The position numbers and the translations under genes were made by a program. From an uncultured Clostridia bacterium (GTDB taxonomy: Bacteria; Bacillota; Clostridia; TANB77; CAG-465), in NCBI GenBank assembly GCA_944388565.1, contig CALXJG010000008.1:1-33538 (forward strand): a DNA stretch of 33,538 nt, read 5' to 3'. The notes below the pieces were generated by a model. It ran no database searches. It saw only the letters and a program-made list of their open reading frames with translations, and was not told the origin of the DNA. This document shows positions 16,712-25,225 of the stretch, in pieces; position 1 is the first letter of the stretch, and each line of letters begins with the position of its first letter.

Positions 16712-16741
16712 CACAAAAATAACATAGATTTACTCTATGTT
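16712..16741 (-). terminator. Terminator of spoIVB
   Basis: AACATAGA and TCTATGTT pair around a five-base loop, followed on the minus strand by TTATTTTTG. The stem contains the spoIVB stop codon. Confidence 0.7.
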
Positions 16742-17791
16742 ACTCATATCTTCTATCATATTTTCTATAAAAACTCCATATCCCCTTGTTGGATCATTTA
16801 AAAATACATGTGTCACAGCTCCTACTAATTTTCCATCCTGTACTATAGGACTACCGCTCATTCCTTGTACTATACCACCTGTTTTTTCAAGTAATTCCTT
16901 ATCAGTTACACTAATTATCATATTTTTATTTCCACTAGATGTAAGTAATACTTTTTGAATTTCTATCTCATATTCTTTAACTTGATTATCATCTAAAGTA
17001 CAATATATACTTGCTTTACCTTCTTTTATCTGTGACTTTGGTAATATTTCTATCTTATTTTTGTTTTTTATAATACTATCTTGAAGTATTTTACCATATA
17101 TTCCTTTATCAGTATTTCCATTAATTTCACCAATTATATTAGTAGTTATTGTACCTTTTAATTCACCTGGTACTTTTGCAACACCCTTTTTGATTGAAAA
17201 TATATTTGTGGTCGTGATTCCACCTGTTTCTATCGGTAATATATAGTTTTCTTTAGTTTCAGTAACTCCATGCCCAAGTGCTGCAAATTTATTAGTTTTT
17301 TTATCATAAAAAGTTATAGTTCCGACACCAGCACTACTATCTTTTACCCATAACCCCAATTTATATTCATTACTTATACTATCTATAACTGGTGATATCT
17401 TAGTATTAAAAACTTCTCCTTGCCTATAAACTTCTAAATCTAATTCATTCCCATTTGAATCTTTTGCACACTGTAATAATTCTGAATTTGTTTCAATTTT
17501 CTCATCGTTTACTTTTAAAATTATATCTCCAACTTGTAAATTTGTATCTTCTCTATCTACTCCCATTATGAGTACACCTGTAGCAAGTAATTTAATTCCT
17601 ACTGCCTCTCCTCCAAGTACTACTTCCATATTAGAGTATGTATCTATAATATCTTTTTCAAAATTATATACTGCTATTAAACTATTATAATTTAAAACAC
17701 AATATATAGCTAAAAGTAAAACAATTACAAATACTGAAATAAATATTTTTTGTTTATTTTTAAAAATTTTTGTATTAAAATTTATTTTCAT
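16730..17791 (-). CDS. spoIVB: SpoIVB serine peptidase
   Basis: A 353-residue sporulation signalling protease (peptidase S55). In Bacillus it is secreted from the forespore and triggers pro-sigma-K processing by cleaving SpoIVFA. One N-terminal membrane anchor lies at about 14-36. A PDZ domain follows (about 65-125, with GVLIMGVDRE and VGDIILKVNDEKI), then the peptidase domain with catalytic His in ALGHGV and Ser in GMSGSPIVQDGK. The start at 17791 is chosen because its ATG overlaps the TGA of the upstream gene (ATGA) and is preceded by GGAG; an upstream in-frame start lies inside the coding region of that gene. It marks the organism as a spore former. The gene is not next to recN and spo0A as in Bacillus. 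Confidence 0.93.
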   Translation of the reverse strand: MKINFNTKIFKNKQKIFISVFVIVLLLAIYCVLNYNSLIAVYNFEKDIIDTYSNMEVVLGGEAVGIKLLATGVLIMGVDREDTNLQVGDIILKVNDEKIETNSELLQCAKDSNGNELDLEVYRQGEVFNTKISPVIDSISNEYKLGLWVKDSSAGVGTITFYDKKTNKFAALGHGVTETKENYILPIETGGITTTNIFSIKKGVAKVPGELKGTITTNIIGEINGNTDKGIYGKILQDSIIKNKNKIEILPKSQIKEGKASIYCTLDDNQVKEYEIEIQKVLLTSSGNKNMIISVTDKELLEKTGGIVQGMSGSPIVQDGKLVGAVTHVFLNDPTRGYGVFIENMIEDMSNIE

Positions 17792-18147
17792 ATATTTACT
17801 CCAATTATTCCTCCTATAATACCAGCAACTGCACATATTGCCATATATATTCCTAATGTATTAGACACAAAAAAACTACTTGATTCTATAACTGCTATAA
17901 TGTAAATAAGTAAACAATAAATAATACCAAAAATAGCTCCATGTAAAAGACCTTTTTCTTTTATTCTTCTTGCAAGAATAGTTGATCCAACTAACACTGA
18001 AACAAGTAATGTTCCAAATACAAAAGATTGTAAATGCCTATCATTTATATTAGTATATGCAAAAATAATTGCTGTTAAACTTATAAATACTATAGATATT
18101 ATGAATGAAATAACTATACTCATGCTATAACTTTTTAACTTTGTCAT
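17788..18147 (-). CDS. TIGR04086-type four-helix membrane protein
   Basis: A 119-residue protein with four membrane helices (about 9-30, 38-58, 66-87 and 96-118) separated by short loops, including the basic LARRIKEKGLLHGAIFG loop typical of TIGR04086 proteins, which are known mainly from clostridial spore formers and have no assigned function. GTG at 18156 sits too close to the SD (GGGAG), so the ATG at 18147 is preferred. The stop overlaps the spoIVB start by four bases, so the two are translationally coupled. This suggests a membrane partner of SpoIVB or simple co-expression. It carries the only intact TGA stop in the window. Confidence 0.8.
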   Translation of the reverse strand: MTKLKSYSMSIVISFIISIVFISLTAIIFAYTNINDRHLQSFVFGTLLVSVLVGSTILARRIKEKGLLHGAIFGIIYCLLIYIIAVIESSSFFVSNTLGIYMAICAVAGIIGGIIGVNI

Positions 18148-18383: not shown

Positions 18384-18415
18384 AATATTCAAATATAACA
18401 AGGGAGGTGATATTA

Positions 18416-19244
18416 TTGAAAAAAGTAGAAAAGACTAATAAATCGTTTGAGAATATAAAGCATATTGATGAAAGTGGTGTTGAATATTGGTACGCTAGAG
18501 AACTTATGACTATTTTAGAGTACAATAAATGGGAAAATTTTGAAAAGGTAATCAATAAAGCTAAAAAGTCGTGTCAAAATAGCGATATTAGTGTGTTTGA
18601 ACATTTTCCTGACGTCAGGAAAACGATAAAAATGCCTAAAGGGGCAGAAAAAACAATTTTAGATTATAAATTAACTCGTTATGCTTGTTATCTAATAGCA
18701 CAAAATGGAGATAGTAGAAAAAAAGTTATTGCACTTGCTCAAACATATTTTGCTGTTCAAACTAGAAAACAAGAAATAAGTGAAAAAGAATATAGTATGT
18801 TAACGGAAGATGAAAAAAGATTTTATCAAAGAGATTTAACAAGAAAGGGAAATTATTCACTTAATCAGGCTGCAAAAAATGCAGGTGTTAAAAATTTTGA
18901 TAAATTTCATAACGCAGGATATAAAGGATTATATAATGGAGAAACCGCTGATGATATTGCAAAAAGAAAAGGCTTAAGATATAGAGAAGATATTTTAGAT
19001 AATATGGGAAGTGATGAACTTATTGCTAATTTATTTAGGATTTCTCAAACAGAACAAAGATTAAAAAGAGATAGAGTTGATACTGAAAGTAAAGCATGTG
19101 ATACTCATAATAAAATTGGAAAAATAGTTAGAAAAGCTATTAAGGAAGCAGGACGGAACTATGCCAGAAGATTTACCTACACCTAAAAAAAGTTTAAAAG
19201 AGTTAGAAAAAGAAAATATAAAATCACTAAATAAAAGTAAGTAG
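18416..19244 (+). pseudogene. dinD: DinD-like DNA-damage-inducible protein gene with 3' frameshift
   Basis: The product resembles DinD over its length: an N-terminal BRO-N-like domain (about 10-110, with YWYARELMTILEY, TRYACYLIAQNGD and AQTYFAVQTRKQE), then the DinD C-terminal region (AGYKGLYNGETADDI, ILDNMGSDELIANLFR). E. coli DinD is LexA-regulated and inhibits RecA activities. The start is TTG at 18416, eight bases after GGGAGG; the GTG at 18407 is inside the SD. At 19154 an extra C shifts the frame: without it the protein reads ...EAGGTMPEDLPTPKKSLKEL and stops at 19244, the known DinD tail. As sequenced it ends at 19186 with an aberrant tail. Only the last ~30 residues are affected, so residual function is possible. 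Sequencing error is the main alternative. Confidence 0.8.
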
Positions 19245-19288: not shown

Positions 19289-19672
19289 ATGAATAAAAAA
19301 GAGTTGTTAAAATTATTAAATAGTTTAAATTTACCAAAAACAGAATATTATATCTTATCAAGTGGTTCTATGTTATTATATGGTTTAAGAGATATTGCAA
19401 ATAATTTAGATTTATGTGTTTCTAATGAACTTTTTAAAATTTTAAAAGAAAAATATAATCTAAATGAAAATAATAAAAATGATTCTGGATTTTACAAAAT
19501 TTCAGAAGATATTGAAATAATACCAAATGATAAGAAAAATTTTAAAATGGATTATATAAACGGATATCCTGTTGAAAATTTAAAAACTATTTTGGAGTTT
19601 AAAGAAAAAAGAAATTTACCTAAAGATAAAAAAGATATAGAAAATATAAAAAAATATTTAAATATTATATAA
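19289..19672 (+). CDS. Nucleotidyltransferase-fold-like small protein
   Basis: A 127-residue soluble, Lys/Asn-rich protein. The segment LSSGSMLLYGLRDIANNLDLCVS (residues about 23-45) resembles the G-S...G.R...DLDL core of minimal nucleotidyltransferases and of the AbiEii/DUF6036-like group. The second acidic position is Asn-Leu-Asp rather than the usual Asp-x-Asp, so activity is uncertain. A later EDIEIIP could supply the third carboxylate. It has its own promoter with no leader and its own terminator, so it is an independent unit just downstream of dinD. No HEPN or antitoxin gene is beside it. Possibly part of an accessory island. Confidence 0.5.
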   Translation: MNKKELLKLLNSLNLPKTEYYILSSGSMLLYGLRDIANNLDLCVSNELFKILKEKYNLNENNKNDSGFYKISEDIEIIPNDKKNFKMDYINGYPVENLKTILEFKEKRNLPKDKKDIENIKKYLNII

Positions 19673-19709: not shown

Positions 19710-19746
19710 ACAAAAAATCAACCAGATTCTATTTTCTGATTGATTT
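19710..19746 (-). terminator. Terminator of the prepilin-like gene
   Basis: On the minus strand AAATCAATCAGA pairs with TCTGGTTGATTT (one G-U) around an eight-base loop and is followed by a U-tract. It lies 45 bases beyond the stop codon. Confidence 0.8.
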
Positions 19747-19791
19747 TATATAAATTACACTCTATCTTTAAATTATTCGACAGTGGCAGTA

Positions 19792-21162
19792 CTACAAATA
19801 CAAGGCAATACGTGAACCAAAGCGATCGATAGAGTCAGTAGGATTACTGTCGCTACGGAGACCAGTATACCAGTAGTAAGAATTAGTGTGGTAATAATAA
19901 TACCCATGAAGGACACGATTGTTGCTAGAATGCAATTCTACTGTCCAATCATATACATTTCCAGCCATATCATATATATTATTTACTGAACCTACTGAAC
20001 CTGTTGACTTTCTACTACCACTAAAGTTTGCATTAACGCCATTTTGCGCATTTACTGGATATGTTGATACATTATTGTCTTTACTCTTTGCAAACCATCT
20101 CATTGTCGCATCCCACTGACTTCCATATATCATATTTGATTTTATCTTTGTTCCATTTAACTGAGTAGCATATTTCTTTTCTTTTGCATACATTGTATAC
20201 CATGTTTGGTTTCCTATATCTTCATTTCCTTTTTTAATTACTACTTTATCCTTACTTAAATCTCCTGTTTCGTATCTTCCTATATAAAATCCATGATATT
20301 CTTTTACACTATTATATATATCATTATATTCCTTTTGCATTAAAGCTTTTAAATCCGTTCCTACTGCTAAACTTGTTCCTAATATTCCATTTATTATATT
20401 TAAATTATCTATATTATTATCATAGATACTATCATTTAAATAACCTGGCTCTCTATAACCATTTGATGAATATGATATTTCTGTTCCTGTATTTAGACCA
20501 TCTTTTGCAAACCCCCATAGTTTTCCTCTCATATTTGGATTTCCATTTTCATCATTTGTTCCATCTTCTTCTGCAAATAAATTTAGCTCACTTTCTGGTA
20601 CTGGTACCCATACAAACTCACTTTCATCTGGGGCTATTACTACTAGTCCTGTTTCTATTGTTTGTTCTTCTTCTTTTTCTGATACCTTAAATCCTTGTGG
20701 AATAGTAGCTATATCTACTTTTCCTTCTGAGTTTTTACTAGTATATATTGCTTCTCCCGTTACAACTACCCCTGGTATTGCCTCTCCCATTATTTCTTTA
20801 AATAATTTTTCTTCTTTTTCTATTGTTCCTGTGTATATTAACTTTCCATTTTGTACTTCTATTTTTCCTTTTAATCCACTACTTTTTATGCTTGTTAGTA
20901 TTTCTTCTATCTTTGGTGTTGTCGTTTCACTTAAATTTAATTCTTCTGCTTTAAATACTCCTAATGTATCTGCTGTTTGTTTTGCTATATACATTGTTAA
21001 TTCTGATTGTAATGTTTTTACATCTGATTTAAATGTTGCTTCTTTTGCATTTTCTATTGGGTTATTGTTATTTAATGTTAATATTACTGCTGCTGCAAGG
21101 ATTATTATTACTATTATTGTTATTACAAGTGTTATTAGACTTATTCCTTTCTTTTCTTTCAC
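19792..21162 (-). CDS. Prepilin-like protein with FGE/C-type-lectin-like C-terminal domain
   Basis: A 456-residue protein. The N-terminus KKGISLITLVITIIVIIIL (from residue 4) is a type IV prepilin-like leader and hydrophobic helix (about 5-30), implying export and possible pilin-like assembly or anchoring. Residues 35-110 are helical. The rest resembles the formylglycine-generating-enzyme/sulfatase-modifying domain: FVWVPVP near 187, YHGFYIGRYE near 291, then NIYDMAGNVYDWTVE (395-409) and a terminal GSRIALYL. Such domains without catalytic cysteines commonly act as C-type-lectin-fold ligand binders and as targets of diversity-generating retroelements; the last 43 codons show that signature (see the entry at 19804-19932). 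Start GTG, eight bases after GGAGG. A terminator and a leader ORF lie just upstream. Confidence 0.75.
   Translation of the reverse strand: MKEKKGISLITLVITIIVIIILAAAVILTLNNNNPIENAKEATFKSDVKTLQSELTMYIAKQTADTLGVFKAEELNLSETTTPKIEEILTSIKSSGLKGKIEVQNGKLIYTGTIEKEEKLFKEIMGEAIPGVVVTGEAIYTSKNSEGKVDIATIPQGFKVSEKEEEQTIETGLVVIAPDESEFVWVPVPESELNLFAEEDGTNDENGNPNMRGKLWGFAKDGLNTGTEISYSSNGYREPGYLNDSIYDNNIDNLNIINGILGTSLAVGTDLKALMQKEYNDIYNSVKEYHGFYIGRYETGDLSKDKVVIKKGNEDIGNQTWYTMYAKEKKYATQLNGTKIKSNMIYGSQWDATMRWFAKSKDNNVSTYPVNAQNGVNANFSGSRKSTGSVGSVNNIYDMAGNVYDWTVELHSSNNRVLHGYYYYHTNSYYWYTGLRSDSNPTDSIDRFGSRIALYL
19804..19932 (-). other. Candidate DGR variable region
   Basis: This stretch encodes residues 411-453 of the prepilin-like protein. 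By hand count 40 of 43 codons end in C or T (exceptions GGG, TGG, TCA), against about 18 of 36 in the segment just before, and its GC content is about 42% in a ~28% window. Arg is CGT/CGC here but AGA elsewhere in the gene. DGR variable regions derive from template NNY codons rich in AAY whose adenines are mutated at codon positions 1 and 2. The runs of Tyr, Ser, His, Asp, Thr and Asn (TAY, AGY/TCY, CAY, GAY, ACY, AAY) fit that. The GC-richer sequence continues about 20 bases beyond the stop. No template repeat or reverse transcriptase lies in this window. Confidence 0.55.
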
Positions 21163-21207
21163 TTTTTATTCCTCCTTTTGTTTTGGTTTACTATGTTTTT
21201 TTACGTA

Positions 21208-21311: not shown

Positions 21312-21374
21312 CTACTTGTGTGTGTGTGTGTGTGTGTGTAGTTCAATGCTATTTGTACGTCCTTTTGTTACCAT
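21312..21374 (-). CDS. Twenty-residue leader peptide with CA dinucleotide tract
   Basis: ATG at 21374 follows the SD AAAAGGTG by five bases, and a promoter lies 33 bases farther upstream. The frame reads MVTKGRTNSIEL, then His-Thr repeats and HK, stopping at TAG (21314-21312). It shares its first 12 codons, with two substitutions, with the truncated ORF at 1-60. Changing the tract by one or two units moves the ribosome to other frames that end within about 20 codons, so peptide length is slippage-dependent. GAACTAC and GTAGTTC flank the tract and could pair as RNA, looping out the repeat. Its place ahead of a terminator and a gene without its own visible promoter suggests a regulatory leader. 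Function unproven. Confidence 0.5.
   Translation of the reverse strand: MVTKGRTNSIELHTHTHTHK
21317..21339. repeat. (TG)11 dinucleotide tract flanked by a 7-base inverted repeat
   Basis: Twenty-three bases of TG alternation, preceded at 21309-21315 by GAACTAC and followed at 21338-21344 by GTAGTTC, exact reverse complements. The downstream flank is repeated at 26-65, beside the tract at the left edge of the window. Confidence 0.9.
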
Positions 21375-21462: not shown

Positions 21463-21885
21463 TTAGCTTTCTTCTTCTACTTTACTCTCAGTTATTTTCT
21501 TTTCTTCTTTTTTGTTTTTCTTTTCATTTTTTAATTCATTCTTTTTATTATCTAATCTTTCAATAAATTCTCTTCTAATAGTAGAGAAATTATTTAACAG
21601 TCTAGATCCGAAAACTATAACAGCGGCTAAGTAAATTTCAACATTTAATTTACTTCCAATATATACTAAAAACATAGCTATTATTGCATTACCAAAAAAA
21701 CCTGATAAGAAAGTAGACATTCTAAATTTCTTTTCTATATTAGCTGAAAAAGCACCAAATACAGAATCAAGGCAAGCTAGTATAGCAACTGCGATATATT
21801 GAGAATATGAATATGGTATTATAACATTAAGACCTGTTAAAACACCAGCTATAACAAATCCAATTACGATAATTATTCCTGTCAT
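21463..21885 (-). CDS. sbp: Small basic protein Sbp (DUF1290) with charged tail
   Basis: A 140-residue membrane protein matching Sbp of Firmicutes dcw clusters. Three or four membrane helices, with YSQYIAVAILACLDSVFGA, SGFFGNAIIAMFL and the conserved FGSRLLNNFSTIRRE near 90-105. The B. subtilis protein has about 121 residues; here an extra Lys/Glu-rich tail of about 30 residues follows. Role unknown; conservation beside DUF881 and division genes suggests envelope or division function. SD GGAGGG. Last gene of the murE-to-sbp run, 14 bases after the DUF881 gene. Confidence 0.9.
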   Translation of the reverse strand: MTGIIIVIGFVIAGVLTGLNVIIPYSYSQYIAVAILACLDSVFGAFSANIEKKFRMSTFLSGFFGNAIIAMFLVYIGSKLNVEIYLAAVIVFGSRLLNNFSTIRREFIERLDNKKNELKNEKKNKKEEKKITESKVEEES

Positions 21886-21899
21886 ATCATATCCCTCCT

Positions 21900-22709
21900 T
21901 TAATTACTTTCTACCGCAGTTCTAAAGCTTAATACGCCATCATATTTTGGTATAGTTACTTCATTTTCTCTACTTACTGTTATACCAATACCTGCTGTTC
22001 CTTTTAATAAATCAACTATTCCATTTTTTATATTCATAGCACTTTCCAAATACTGTGCATTTCCAATTGCTTTAATAACTATTGGAGTAGCAACTTTCTG
22101 GTAATTTACTTGTATTACTGGTCCAACACAACGTATAGCTGAAGTTGATATAATTCTTTGATCATTTACACTTATTGCCTCTGCACCTGCAGCTTTTAAT
22201 TCATTTACAACAGTCAATACATCACTATCGTGAACTAAACTATTAGAATCTACTTCTGCAGCGTTTTTAGTACCATCTGTAAGAGTAATTATAATTCCTT
22301 CTCCTTTTAAATCTGTTGTTCCAGCAAGTGTAGAAAGATTTTCTATTTCTTTTTTCATAGAATTAATAAGAGCATCATTAGTTGATGAATTATTTTTGTA
22401 TTCTTCAACTATCTTTTCACTAGCAGAATATTTATCTTTTAAAGCTTCATATTCTTGTTGCAAAGTAAGTAATTCATCTGCAAGTTGTGCCTCTCTTTTC
22501 CCAGCAATTACTTCTTCTGTATTACTAATAGTCTTCATTTGTGCTGTAAGTAACATACTTAAGAAAAATAATGCAATACCAATTACTGTATATGAAATTA
22601 TAGAATACTTTTTAAAAAATTCTACTACTTTTTCTTTAAATAATTTCTTCTTTTCTCCATTTTCTTCTACTACTTCTTTTTCTTCATTTAATTCTTTTTT
22701 ATTTGTCAC
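21900..22709 (-). CDS. DUF881 (YlxW-like) division-cluster protein
   Basis: A 269-residue bitopic membrane protein. A charged cytoplasmic N-terminus (about 36 residues), one membrane helix (about 38-58), a coiled-coil segment (about 68-130) and a C-terminal alpha/beta DUF881 domain with GEGIIITLTDG and ISVNDQRIISTSAIRCVGPVIQVN. DUF881 proteins are conserved next to ftsQ and sbp in Firmicutes; their molecular job is unknown. Start GTG, preceded by AGGGGG. Spacing to ftsQ upstream is 15 bases, so co-transcribed. Confidence 0.88.
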   Translation of the reverse strand: MTNKKELNEEKEVVEENGEKKKLFKEKVVEFFKKYSIISYTVIGIALFFLSMLLTAQMKTISNTEEVIAGKREAQLADELLTLQQEYEALKDKYSASEKIVEEYKNNSSTNDALINSMKKEIENLSTLAGTTDLKGEGIIITLTDGTKNAAEVDSNSLVHDSDVLTVVNELKAAGAEAISVNDQRIISTSAIRCVGPVIQVNYQKVATPIVIKAIGNAQYLESAMNIKNGIVDLLKGTAGIGITVSRENEVTIPKYDGVLSFRTAVESN

Positions 22710-22724
22710 TCTTATGCCCCCTCA

Positions 22725-23555
22725 TTAAAAAGATGAAAATATAGGTTTATCTTTTGTCATATCTATAACGCCTACTGATTCAGCAGGTAACTTTTCTATT
22801 ATTCCCTTTAAAAAGTTCATCTTATATTCTAATTCAATTTCATTTGGAAACTTAACAATAAGTTTATCATCTAAAGTAAGAGTTGTCAAGGAATTTTCAA
22901 AACTTACTTTCGTTATAGTCATACCAATTCCACTCTTATCATATTCTTTTTTTACATTTAAATATGTTAGGATTTTTGAATAGTCTATTTCATTTATTTT
23001 TTCACCAAATATGATTTCATCTGCAAAAGTAATACCATATACTAACATTTCATCTTCTGTTTTTTCTTCTATTTTTCCTTCTTCTAAAATATAACCTTCT
23101 CCATCTATTTTAAAAAACTTATTCTTTTCTTTATCATAAGCTAAGTATTTAGAAGTTCTTTCTGAAACGTTTAATTGTATTTTATTTGGTAGTTTTATAT
23201 TTAAATTAATATCACTTAAATATGGAAATTTATTAATATTCTCTTTATTATAACTAAAGAACTCAATAAATATATTCTTACCAAGAGAAATATCAAGACT
23301 ACTCATAATCTCCTCTTTAGTATAACGCTCTGTTCCATTAAGCTCAACCTCGGATACATCAAAAGTAGAACTAGTAAATAGTAGATAACAACCTGAGGCC
23401 AAAACTCCTATAATTAAAAATATAAGTATTATTATAAAGGCTTTTTTTCCTTTTTTCTTCTTTTTTATTTTTCTTTTATTTTCTTCATAATTCCTTTTTG
23501 TAGAAGCACTATTTTTTCTAGTACTTGTCCTAGAGTTATTACCTCTATTTCCCAA
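22725..23555 (-). CDS. ftsQ: Cell division protein FtsQ/DivIB
   Basis: A 276-residue bitopic division protein that bridges FtsL and FtsB-type proteins in the septal complex. A very basic N-terminus (about 40 residues), one membrane helix (about 41-63), then the POTRA domain (FDVSEVELNGTERYTKEEI) and the beta domain with KLPNKIQLNVSERTSKYLAYDK. The GTG at 23564 lies in the SD AGGTGA, so TTG at 23555, six bases after it, is the better start. It begins nine bases after the murG stop. Confidence 0.88.
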   Translation of the reverse strand: MGNRGNNSRTSTRKNSASTKRNYEENKRKIKKKKKGKKAFIIILIFLIIGVLASGCYLLFTSSTFDVSEVELNGTERYTKEEIMSSLDISLGKNIFIEFFSYNKENINKFPYLSDINLNIKLPNKIQLNVSERTSKYLAYDKEKNKFFKIDGEGYILEEGKIEEKTEDEMLVYGITFADEIIFGEKINEIDYSKILTYLNVKKEYDKSGIGMTITKVSFENSLTTLTLDDKLIVKFPNEIELEYKMNFLKGIIEKLPAESVGVIDMTKDKPIFSSF

Positions 23556-23564
23556 TATTATCAC

Positions 23565-24689
23565 CTACTTTTTTAACGCATCTAATATACATTTATATAT
23601 TTTTTCTTCAACATCTAATTTAACGACTTTTCTTGCATTTTTGGACATTTCATAAAGATTATTTTCTTTAGTCATTTCTTTTATTTTTAAATCAAGACTA
23701 TTTGCATTTAAATCTTTTTGTTCAATTATTTTTCCAGCTCCAATATTTTCTAATACTTTTGCATTATATAATTGATGATTTTCAGCAGCTGTTGGAAGCG
23801 GTATTAATATTGCTGGTTTAGCAGATAAAGCAAGCTCTGTAATTGTCATGGCTCCAGCTCTTGTTATACACATATCAACTGCTTTATACATTTTATCCAT
23901 ATCATATACAAATTTTTCAATTCTTATTTTATTTGAAAAATCAATATTGTTTTCTTTACCTATCTTCTCTATTTTACTTTTTATATTATCATAATTTTTA
24001 TTTCCAGTTACTAAAACTATAAAATAATCATTAACAAGATTATTCTTTAACATTTCAATAATTGTTTCATTTACTCTAACAGCACCTTGTGAACCACAAG
24101 TAACTAGTACTATCTTTTTAGATATCTTATCTAAACCAAATTCTTTTTTACATTCCTCTTTATTAAGTTTGTCAAAAGAAGTTGTATCAAATCTAGCAGG
24201 TGTACCAGTATAAACTATATTCTCTCTATCTTTTAATCTTTTTCTTGCATCTTCAAAGCCAATCATTACTTTTTTAGCTTTTCTTGCAAGTAATCTTACT
24301 GATACTCCTGGGAATGCATTACTTTCATGCAAAACATATGGTACTTTTAATTTTCGGCTTGCAAGCATTACAGGTCCACAAATATATCCACCAGTTCCAA
24401 TTACTAAATCAGCATTAAATTCTTTTATTATTTTTTTTGCATCTCCAATACCTTTATATGTATTAGTTATTGCTTTAAAATTTTTTAAAGTAAAAGAACG
24501 AATAATTTTTCCTGTACTTATATGTTCTATATCAAATCCTGCATTTTTTACAAGAGAGTTCTCAAGTCCATCTTTTGTTCCTATAAATAATACTTTTGTA
24601 TCTGGTTTGTTTTTTAAAATTATTTTTGCCATAGCAATAGCTGGATTAACATGCCCTCCTGTACCAGCACAAGCAAATATCACATTCAT
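23565..24689 (-). CDS. murG: UDP-GlcNAc:lipid I GlcNAc transferase MurG
   Basis: A 374-residue GT28 glycosyltransferase at the inner face of the membrane that makes lipid II. The start MNVIFACAGTGGHVNPA has the donor/acceptor GTGGH loop. GTGGYICGP near 95, HESNAFPG near 118 and the second-domain CGSQGA near 195 and R-x-GAMTITEL near 272 are all present. The ATG at 24689 follows GAAGGTG; an upstream TTG would place the SD inside the gene and overlap the preceding frame, so it is rejected. Length is normal for the family. Confidence 0.95.
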   Translation of the reverse strand: MNVIFACAGTGGHVNPAIAMAKIILKNKPDTKVLFIGTKDGLENSLVKNAGFDIEHISTGKIIRSFTLKNFKAITNTYKGIGDAKKIIKEFNADLVIGTGGYICGPVMLASRKLKVPYVLHESNAFPGVSVRLLARKAKKVMIGFEDARKRLKDRENIVYTGTPARFDTTSFDKLNKEECKKEFGLDKISKKIVLVTCGSQGAVRVNETIIEMLKNNLVNDYFIVLVTGNKNYDNIKSKIEKIGKENNIDFSNKIRIEKFVYDMDKMYKAVDMCITRAGAMTITELALSAKPAILIPLPTAAENHQLYNAKVLENIGAGKIIEQKDLNANSLDLKIKEMTKENNLYEMSKNARKVVKLDVEEKIYKCILDALKK

Positions 24690-24703
24690 CTTTTCACCTT
24701 CTC

Positions 24704-25225
24704 TTATCTCCAAGTCGAATTTTCATTTTCTTCAAAAATTTCATCTAAATTTCTATTTACAGGTATTTTTCCTTCCAAATAACTATACCCTTCACCATTA
24801 TTTTTTAATAAAAATCTATAGTATGGCTTAGGATATATCTCATTTGCTATATAAAAACTAAGCTTTACGATTTCATAGTTTTCCCCGTATTTTTCTTGTA
24901 CATCTTTTGCTAAGTCTAAATCAACTATATTAAGAGATATACTATCTTCTTTTGATATATTATTTATATCGTCACAATTTACTGTTCCATATAACTCAAT
25001 ATCATCAACCTTAGAAAAATATAATTCATAACTTATTTTATCTGTTTTACTTTTAACTCTTTTATATTTTTCTAATTTTGTATCTATATCATAATTTTCT
25101 TTTACTATTTCACTAGCTATGGTTGCAACATTTTCAAATCTTACCCTTTTTACTTCTATTACAACTACAGTAATTATCATTATAACAAGAATTACTACAC
25201 CTACAATTATTAATTTTTTCTTCAT
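24704..25225 (-). CDS. Small bitopic membrane protein inserted between ftsW and murG
   Basis: A 173-residue protein with a basic N-terminus and one membrane helix (about 4-23); the remaining 150 residues face outside. The outer part is mixed alpha/beta with a charged helix (about 30-65) and segments such as YELYFSKVDDIELYG and YRFLLKNNGEGYSYLEGKIPV. No family recognised. SD GGTGG. It sits 18 bases after ftsW and 14 before murG, so it belongs to the operon. Its conserved-operon position suggests an envelope or division accessory role, but nothing in the sequence shows it. Confidence 0.65.
   Translation of the reverse strand: MKKKLIIVGVVILVIMIITVVVIEVKRVRFENVATIASEIVKENYDIDTKLEKYKRVKSKTDKISYELYFSKVDDIELYGTVNCDDINNISKEDSISLNIVDLDLAKDVQEKYGENYEIVKLSFYIANEIYPKPYYRFLLKNNGEGYSYLEGKIPVNRNLDEIFEENENSTWR

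Follow-up and report, generated by a model that had tools for sequence, protein, structure and literature searches.

Among the described systems closest to the locus reported here, the diversity-generating retroelement (DGR) of Bordetella phage BPP-1 (Brt, Avd, TR/VR and Mtd) shares with it the family of the reverse transcriptase (RT), the Avd protein and the adenine-specific transfer of sequence from a template repeat (TR) to a variable region (VR), as well as a VR that forms the 3' end of the region coding for a C-type-lectin-like domain, here a predicted one, and a cis element just after the VR. The two differ in that the target is a tail fibre in BPP-1 and a prepilin-lectin here, where the system lies in a bacterial chromosome, includes an added gene with MutS domain I, carries a CACTG repeat element with no hairpin found, and has a second target on another contig. 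A MutS-like accessory gene of DGRs is already known, and pilus proteins of Bacteroides are known DGR targets. Type IV pilins are also varied by DNA inversion, as in the PilV shufflon of R64, where alternative C-terminal cassettes, lying inverted, join a constant N-terminus at a short repeated sequence. DGR targets of the DUF1566 class with pilin or pilus features have likewise been described (cited in PMC6642488). Like those of Bacteroides, they resemble the target presented here in being diversified adhesins of the surface or pilus, and differ from it in that the latter, which comes from gut Clostridia, combines the N-terminus of a type IV prepilin with an FGE-like domain. In Thiohalocapsa PB-PSB1 a chromosomal DGR with one RT and TR has additional targets at other loci; FGE-type C-type-lectin domains occur in one of its target classes, and the VRs attributed to action in trans are identical to the TR at every non-A position (Doré et al., PMC10907252); those trans targets are sensors of conflict systems, whereas the remote target described below is a pilin-lectin that has diverged at non-A sites as well. 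VRs remote from the RT would not be detected by the survey method of Roux et al. (PMC8144416).

The window (the whole stretch of DNA analysed, 33,538 nucleotides from an uncultured Clostridia bacterium) contains a gene whose 3' end had been taken, in a sequence-only reading, for a probable DGR variable region on account of its richness in NNY codons (Table 1). The count on which this rested is exact, with NNY at 40 of the last 43 codons (93%, 19932 to 19804 on the minus strand), while the upstream share, given as about half, had been overestimated and amounts to 124 of 410 codons (30%; Fisher p=3e-16 for the two segments). The 43-codon end is also GC-richer, as had been noted (GC 0.419 and GC3 0.372, as compared to 0.295 and 0.127 upstream), and the best 43-codon stretch in any other ORF of the window of at least 150 aa reaches 30 of 43. 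The GC-rich segment, which had been described as continuing past the stop codon, extends only about 14 nt beyond it when read off the sequence, but a conserved element is located there. The hairpin and T-run further downstream would probably act as the transcription terminator of the gene, and the GT tract upstream could be a slippage site acting on its expression. The Bro-N gene and the nucleotidyltransferase-like ORF are possibly remnants of mobile elements at the dcw-SpoIVB junction. Phage origin of the target gene itself was considered and rejected, with no match in 50,697 phage records.

Table 1. Positions of the target gene, its elements and its neighbours in the window.
Feature	Position	Strand	Remarks
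SpoIVB	16730-17836		target gene sits between DUF1290 and SpoIVB
Bro-N domain gene	18407-19186		adjoins target gene, opposite orientation
ORF	19289-19672		possible nucleotidyltransferase-like
Hairpin then T-run	19712..19747	(-)	read from sequence
Post-VR element TAGTACTGCCACTG	19781..19794	(-)	overlaps stop codon of target gene
Target gene	19792..21162	(-)	456 aa, GTG start; prepilin N-terminus, linker, predicted C-terminal FGE/C-type-lectin-like domain
Variable region (VR)	19803..19932	(-)	78% identity to TR on contig C20; A-biased non-synonymous differences
20-bp crossover-like site CAAAATGGCGTTAATGCAAA	20027..20046	(-)	one copy in target gene
Type III (prepilin) signal and hydrophobic alpha-1, KKG followed by ISLITLVITIIVIIILAAAVILTLNNNNPI	21058..21162	(-)	nearly identical in pilins of the type IV pilus (T4P) gene cluster of contig C9
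AGGAGG ribosome-binding site of target gene	about 21171-21176		
GT dinucleotide repeat	about 21319-21338		upstream of target gene
DUF1290	21463-21885	(-)	dcw-side neighbour
DUF881	21900-22709	(-)	dcw-side neighbour
FtsQ	22725-23564	(-)	dcw-side neighbour
MurG	23565-24713	(-)	dcw-side neighbour

The assembly to which the window belongs (1.38 Mb in 80 contigs, 98% complete, with gaps remaining) carries a complete DGR on contig C20, consisting of RT, Avd, a MutS-domain-I protein, TR and target. An RVT_1 search of this assembly returned two genes, one on contig C1 and one on C20. The RT that the sequence-only reading had predicted elsewhere in the genome is the one on C20, which shows the [IVL]GxxxSQ motif in the form GIPIGNYTSQ, invariant in the seven RTs aligned (the C20 RT and six relatives). 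Compared with the PDB, the RT alignment matches entry 8ub7 best, at 209.8 bits, followed by a group II intron RT at 104.3 bits; we take 8ub7 to be the BPP-1 DGR RT complex. The C1 gene was dismissed as a DGR RT, since it looks like a maturase of the group II intron type. Upstream of the C20 RT lie an avd gene, whose product scores above the cut-off of PF22296 and matches NF033474 with E=3.6e-16, below the curated cut-off of that model, and a gene whose 145-aa product contains MutS domain I (PF01624), a domain present in each of the six members tested. An AAC-rich TR follows downstream of the RT, and the cis target gene, 85% identical to the window gene, precedes the RT cassette, giving the order target gene, MutS-domain-I gene, avd, RT, TR. 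Between the cis target and the MutS-domain gene there are about four tandem copies of CCTAACGGCGAGTTAACTCC (L002:409-485, corresponding to C20:18815-18891).

Comparison of this TR with the cis VR shows differences at 22 of 43 adenines and at 2 of 90 other bases (p=2.6e-11), which is the signature of DGR action. The same TR matches the NNY-rich segment of the window gene, as had been anticipated, so that with RT, TR and an A-specific cis VR in the genome this segment is confirmed as a DGR variable region. Here the TR and the window VR disagree at 13 of 39 adenines and at 13 of 88 non-A sites. The changes at adenines are non-synonymous in 12 cases and silent in one, those at other bases non-synonymous in four and silent in nine; over all sites of the window VR alone the A bias is modest (p=0.017), and at codon positions 1-2 changes affect 12 of 38 adenines versus 4 of 46 non-A sites (p=0.008). 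Eleven of the 13 adenines changed in the window VR are also changed in the cis VR. The expectation that the two copies would differ only where the template has A is thus met in the A-biased non-synonymous changes but fails at the non-A sites, where the identity to the TR of a recently homed VR is not found in the window VR. According to Yan et al., 46% of TR-VR pairs had non-A changes, at a mean of 2.58% in those pairs (PMC6642488), and the non-A change rate of the window VR lies well above this mean. The window VR further contains one extra codon and three mismatches in the 3' core. In sum, the window VR carries the imprint of a DGR but does not look recently homed from the C20 TR.

Directly after the stop codon of the C20 cis VR stands TAGCACTGACCACTG, the consensus of a post-VR element from which the copy in the window gene differs by one substitution and one deletion. 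Across 84 RT loci (80 from named gut Clostridia/Bacilli MAGs, obtained via the RT alignment, and four whole-genome loci) a script found 49 A-biased TR/VR pairs, and an element of the form ACTG-N1-3-CNCT stands after 22 of 49 VRs and after 0 of 49 TRs, with 0.38 expected by shuffling. Within the window's genome a loose form of the element, TARNACTGN{1,3}CACTG, occurs at exactly two sites, one at the stop codon of the window gene, the other at the C20 target. Elsewhere in the genus its matches fall on targets that are of DGRs or VR-like, three of the four in G003 and those in G015 and G027, besides two looser matches in G013, and a reversed control pattern gave one match in 28 genomes. The same data served to discover the element and to count it; the genome-wide tally of the pattern is a partly independent test. 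Paralog C25, whose 3' end is neither NNY-rich nor TR-like, lacks the element. No stable DNA fold corresponding to a BPP-1-type hairpin or cruciform was found after the window VR, where the CACTG repeat element stands instead. The comparison with the IMH/hairpin region of BPP-1 (PMC3240598) leads us to infer that the element marks targets for the DGR; the recognition signal probably consists of the shared 3' core and the CACTG repeat element after the stop, which is absent from the TRs. Perfect or near-perfect inverted repeats follow the VR at some targets, in three cases without the CACTG element (L160, L162, L131) and in one with it (L112), which suggests two types of recognition element among related RTs.

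That the NNY richness of the window VR reflects ordinary codon bias, or selection for Tyr, Ser, Asn and Asp in a lectin loop without any DGR, is hardly credible: the tips of FGE and C-type-lectin domains are indeed often rich in polar residues, yet no other ORF of the window exceeds 30 of 43, the genome contains the RT, the TR and the A-specific cis VR, and paralog C25, which has the same domain but is not TR-like and is without the element, has no NNY stretch at this place. Codon bias as the sole cause was rejected on account of this paralog and of the TR match. A reading that we regard as quite possible, though falling a little short of probable, is that the copy is a fossil: this or an ancestral DGR diversified it in the past, and today it evolves like any other gene, by drift under purifying selection, and no longer takes part in retrohoming. 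It would account for the nine silent third-position changes, the extra codon, the three core mismatches and the degenerate post-VR element, and orphan variable regions without a detectable template occur in G003 too; the frame and the recognition element are nevertheless mostly kept. Simple drift since duplication is moreover insufficient, as the stretch just before the VR (20142-19963) is 95-100% identical between the window gene and the C20 target, yet 9 of 41 third-position non-A sites (22%) within the VR differ from the TR. Outside the linker most stretches of the two genes are 93-100% identical, while their VRs reach only 70-84%.

Such divergence between near-identical flanks calls for another template or for homogenised flanks, and speaks for a VR written from a second template, be it a lost or unassembled DGR or an earlier C20 TR, or acquired by recombination with a paralogous cassette. 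Two paralogous cassettes, C14a and C71b, are A-biased against the TR as well, and the dcw junction of G015 has an RT and TR of its own; the 98% complete assembly, in which gaps remain, however yielded neither a second DGR RT nor a better-matching TR, and no better template for the window VR was found among all loci compared. We hold this origin to be conceivable but somewhat doubtful. Three causes would each account for the divergence, namely an older version of the TR, loss of a second template, and homogenisation of the flanks, and we do not choose between them. The writing of the window copy lies some time back or used another template, and the copy is probably a weak target at present; that it is currently being diversified appears rather unlikely, no strain or read data being at hand.

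The prepilin leader proposed for the window protein is borne out by its N-terminus, GISLITLVITIIVIIILAAAVILTLNNNNPI, which is nearly identical to that of two pilins in the genome's own T4P cluster on contig C9, and the protein gives profile matches to geopilin and PilE1. The mature protein lacks Glu at +5, having Thr there, and the C9 pilins have Val. Besides these pilins, the C9 cluster encodes a T2SSE/PilB-like protein, a second T2SSE (PilT-like), a T2SSF/PilC-like protein, PilN and the N-terminal domain of an A24 prepilin peptidase. The N-terminal helix of the C9 pilins (L039:6605-7689) and that of the DGR target (window 20980-21162) are almost identical. A gene on C1 (L040:7695-8600) is 93% identical to the target over the first 130 residues and continues with an unrelated C-terminus, suggesting an exchange of N-terminal modules. 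The C-terminal domain of the window protein matches Pfam FGE-sulfatase below the cut-off and SUMF2 (1y4j) by profile with E=6e-7; both AlphaFold models are poor in the VR, with low confidence, and a fold search with the full-length model gave no meaningful match. Export of the protein, its display on the type IV pilus and binding of a ligand by the lectin domain are inferred.

Taken jointly, these data make it very probable that the 3' segment of the window gene is a remote VR of the chromosomal DGR on C20, in a protein whose lectin would be displayed on type IV pili. In this DGR the TR transcript would be copied by the RT with misincorporation opposite adenines, and the cDNA would replace the 3' end of a target gene, probably recognised through the shared 3' core and the CACTG repeat element after the stop, so that about 11 AAY codons on the tip of the FGE/C-type-lectin-like domain would be rewritten; the type IV pilus machinery of the cell would then export the protein and build it in as a minor pilin, presenting the lectin. 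RT, Avd, TR, the A-specific cis VR, the homologous A-biased window VR, the post-VR element, the prepilin N-terminus and the T4P genes are observed, whereas export on a pilus, ligand binding and the role of the post-VR element are inferred only.

The sequence-only reading had seen the novelty in this target architecture next to the dcw cluster. The target class is unusual, but prepilin targets recur in many gut Clostridia/Bacilli, and the dcw-side location is conserved: in G015 the DUF1290-SpoIVB junction likewise holds a DGR, complete with an RT and TR of its own, and a VR-like target of G003 adjoins DUF881, from which we conclude that the location is old. An RT of this type is present in 6 of 28 genomes of the genus, the window's own included, and another four RT loci in the genus (L085, L086, L087, L089) have A-biased TR/VR pairs with a prepilin gene beside each. 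In the 80 MAG loci the VR-bearing frame could be assigned in 30, of which 15 encode prepilins by a motif rule; two of the 15 non-prepilin frames begin at the edge of a contig. G003 has several scattered VR-like genes for prepilins (L091, L092, L093), in which an NNY-rich 3' end precedes the CACTG element. No template was found in G003 for L091, and the three genes look like orphan targets, since the only DGR detected in this genome has a different VR and 3' context. In G012, two loci with DGR RTs, Avd and MutS-domain genes (L084 on C34, L088 on C31) showed no local A-biased TR/VR pair; L084 includes one TR-like stretch (2038-2166), which makes remote targets likely.

Paralogs of the window gene on C14, C74 and C29 share its lectin domain, and it is these, not the window gene itself, that match the arrangement of the R64 PilV shufflon. 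Headless C-terminal cassettes on C14 and C71 lie in opposite orientations, and alternative C-termini are joined at one short repeated site of 20 bp, each cassette starting exactly at CAAAATRGYRTTAATGCGAA, upstream of which homology ends. Twelve mismatch-free copies of this site family occur in the genome, all in the pilin-lectin gene family or at a cassette flank, and site sub-variants are concordant within each head-cassette group; a 22-bp form of the site is absent from 35 relatives of the family, and the copy in the window gene has no inverted partner within the window. The contig pairs C51/C71 and C74/C14 overlap by exactly 77 nt, beginning or ending at the site, and the end of C29 also falls there, as is expected if reads branch at the site. 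Shufflon-like prepilin-lectin heads and inverted cassettes were noted at L034 (C14:1-8000), L035 (C71), L036 (C74), L037 (end of C29) and L074 (end of C51). Cassettes carry an FGE tip, several with a LamG domain, and the A bias of C14a (p=3e-5) and C71b (p=0.001) against the C20 TR suggests that these two may be former DGR targets. In contrast to R64, the paralogs are chromosomal, with several heads and with FGE and LamG lectin cassettes, and no recombinase was found adjacent to the cassettes, recombinases being found only elsewhere in the genome. Inversion of the cassettes in a shufflon-like system is inferred from contigs, without reads.

The DGR itself is of a known kind; what is unusual is the class of target, a prepilin-lectin remote from the machinery. 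Found from the letters of the DNA alone, the window gene is a remote target of the kind that the method of PMC8144416 would miss, and the cis element TAGCACTGNNCACTG could be used for finding remote DGR targets across genomes and for testing target recognition. A search of the full-text literature, judged by title and abstract, gave no paper on a combination of DGR and DNA inversion. It remains a tentative idea, which we do not put forward as the probable one, that a single gut bacterium diversifies one T4P-lectin family in two ways, in some members by a DGR that alters codons for ligand binding, the window gene in trans among them, and in others by shufflon-like swaps of entire C-terminal lectin cassettes, some of which, as old DGR products, archive earlier variants. 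The finding connects the DGRs of gut Clostridia with type IV pili, in a system that is testable for glycan or cell binding, and the arrangement of the same protein family for DNA inversion would join two mechanisms of diversification in one surface organelle.
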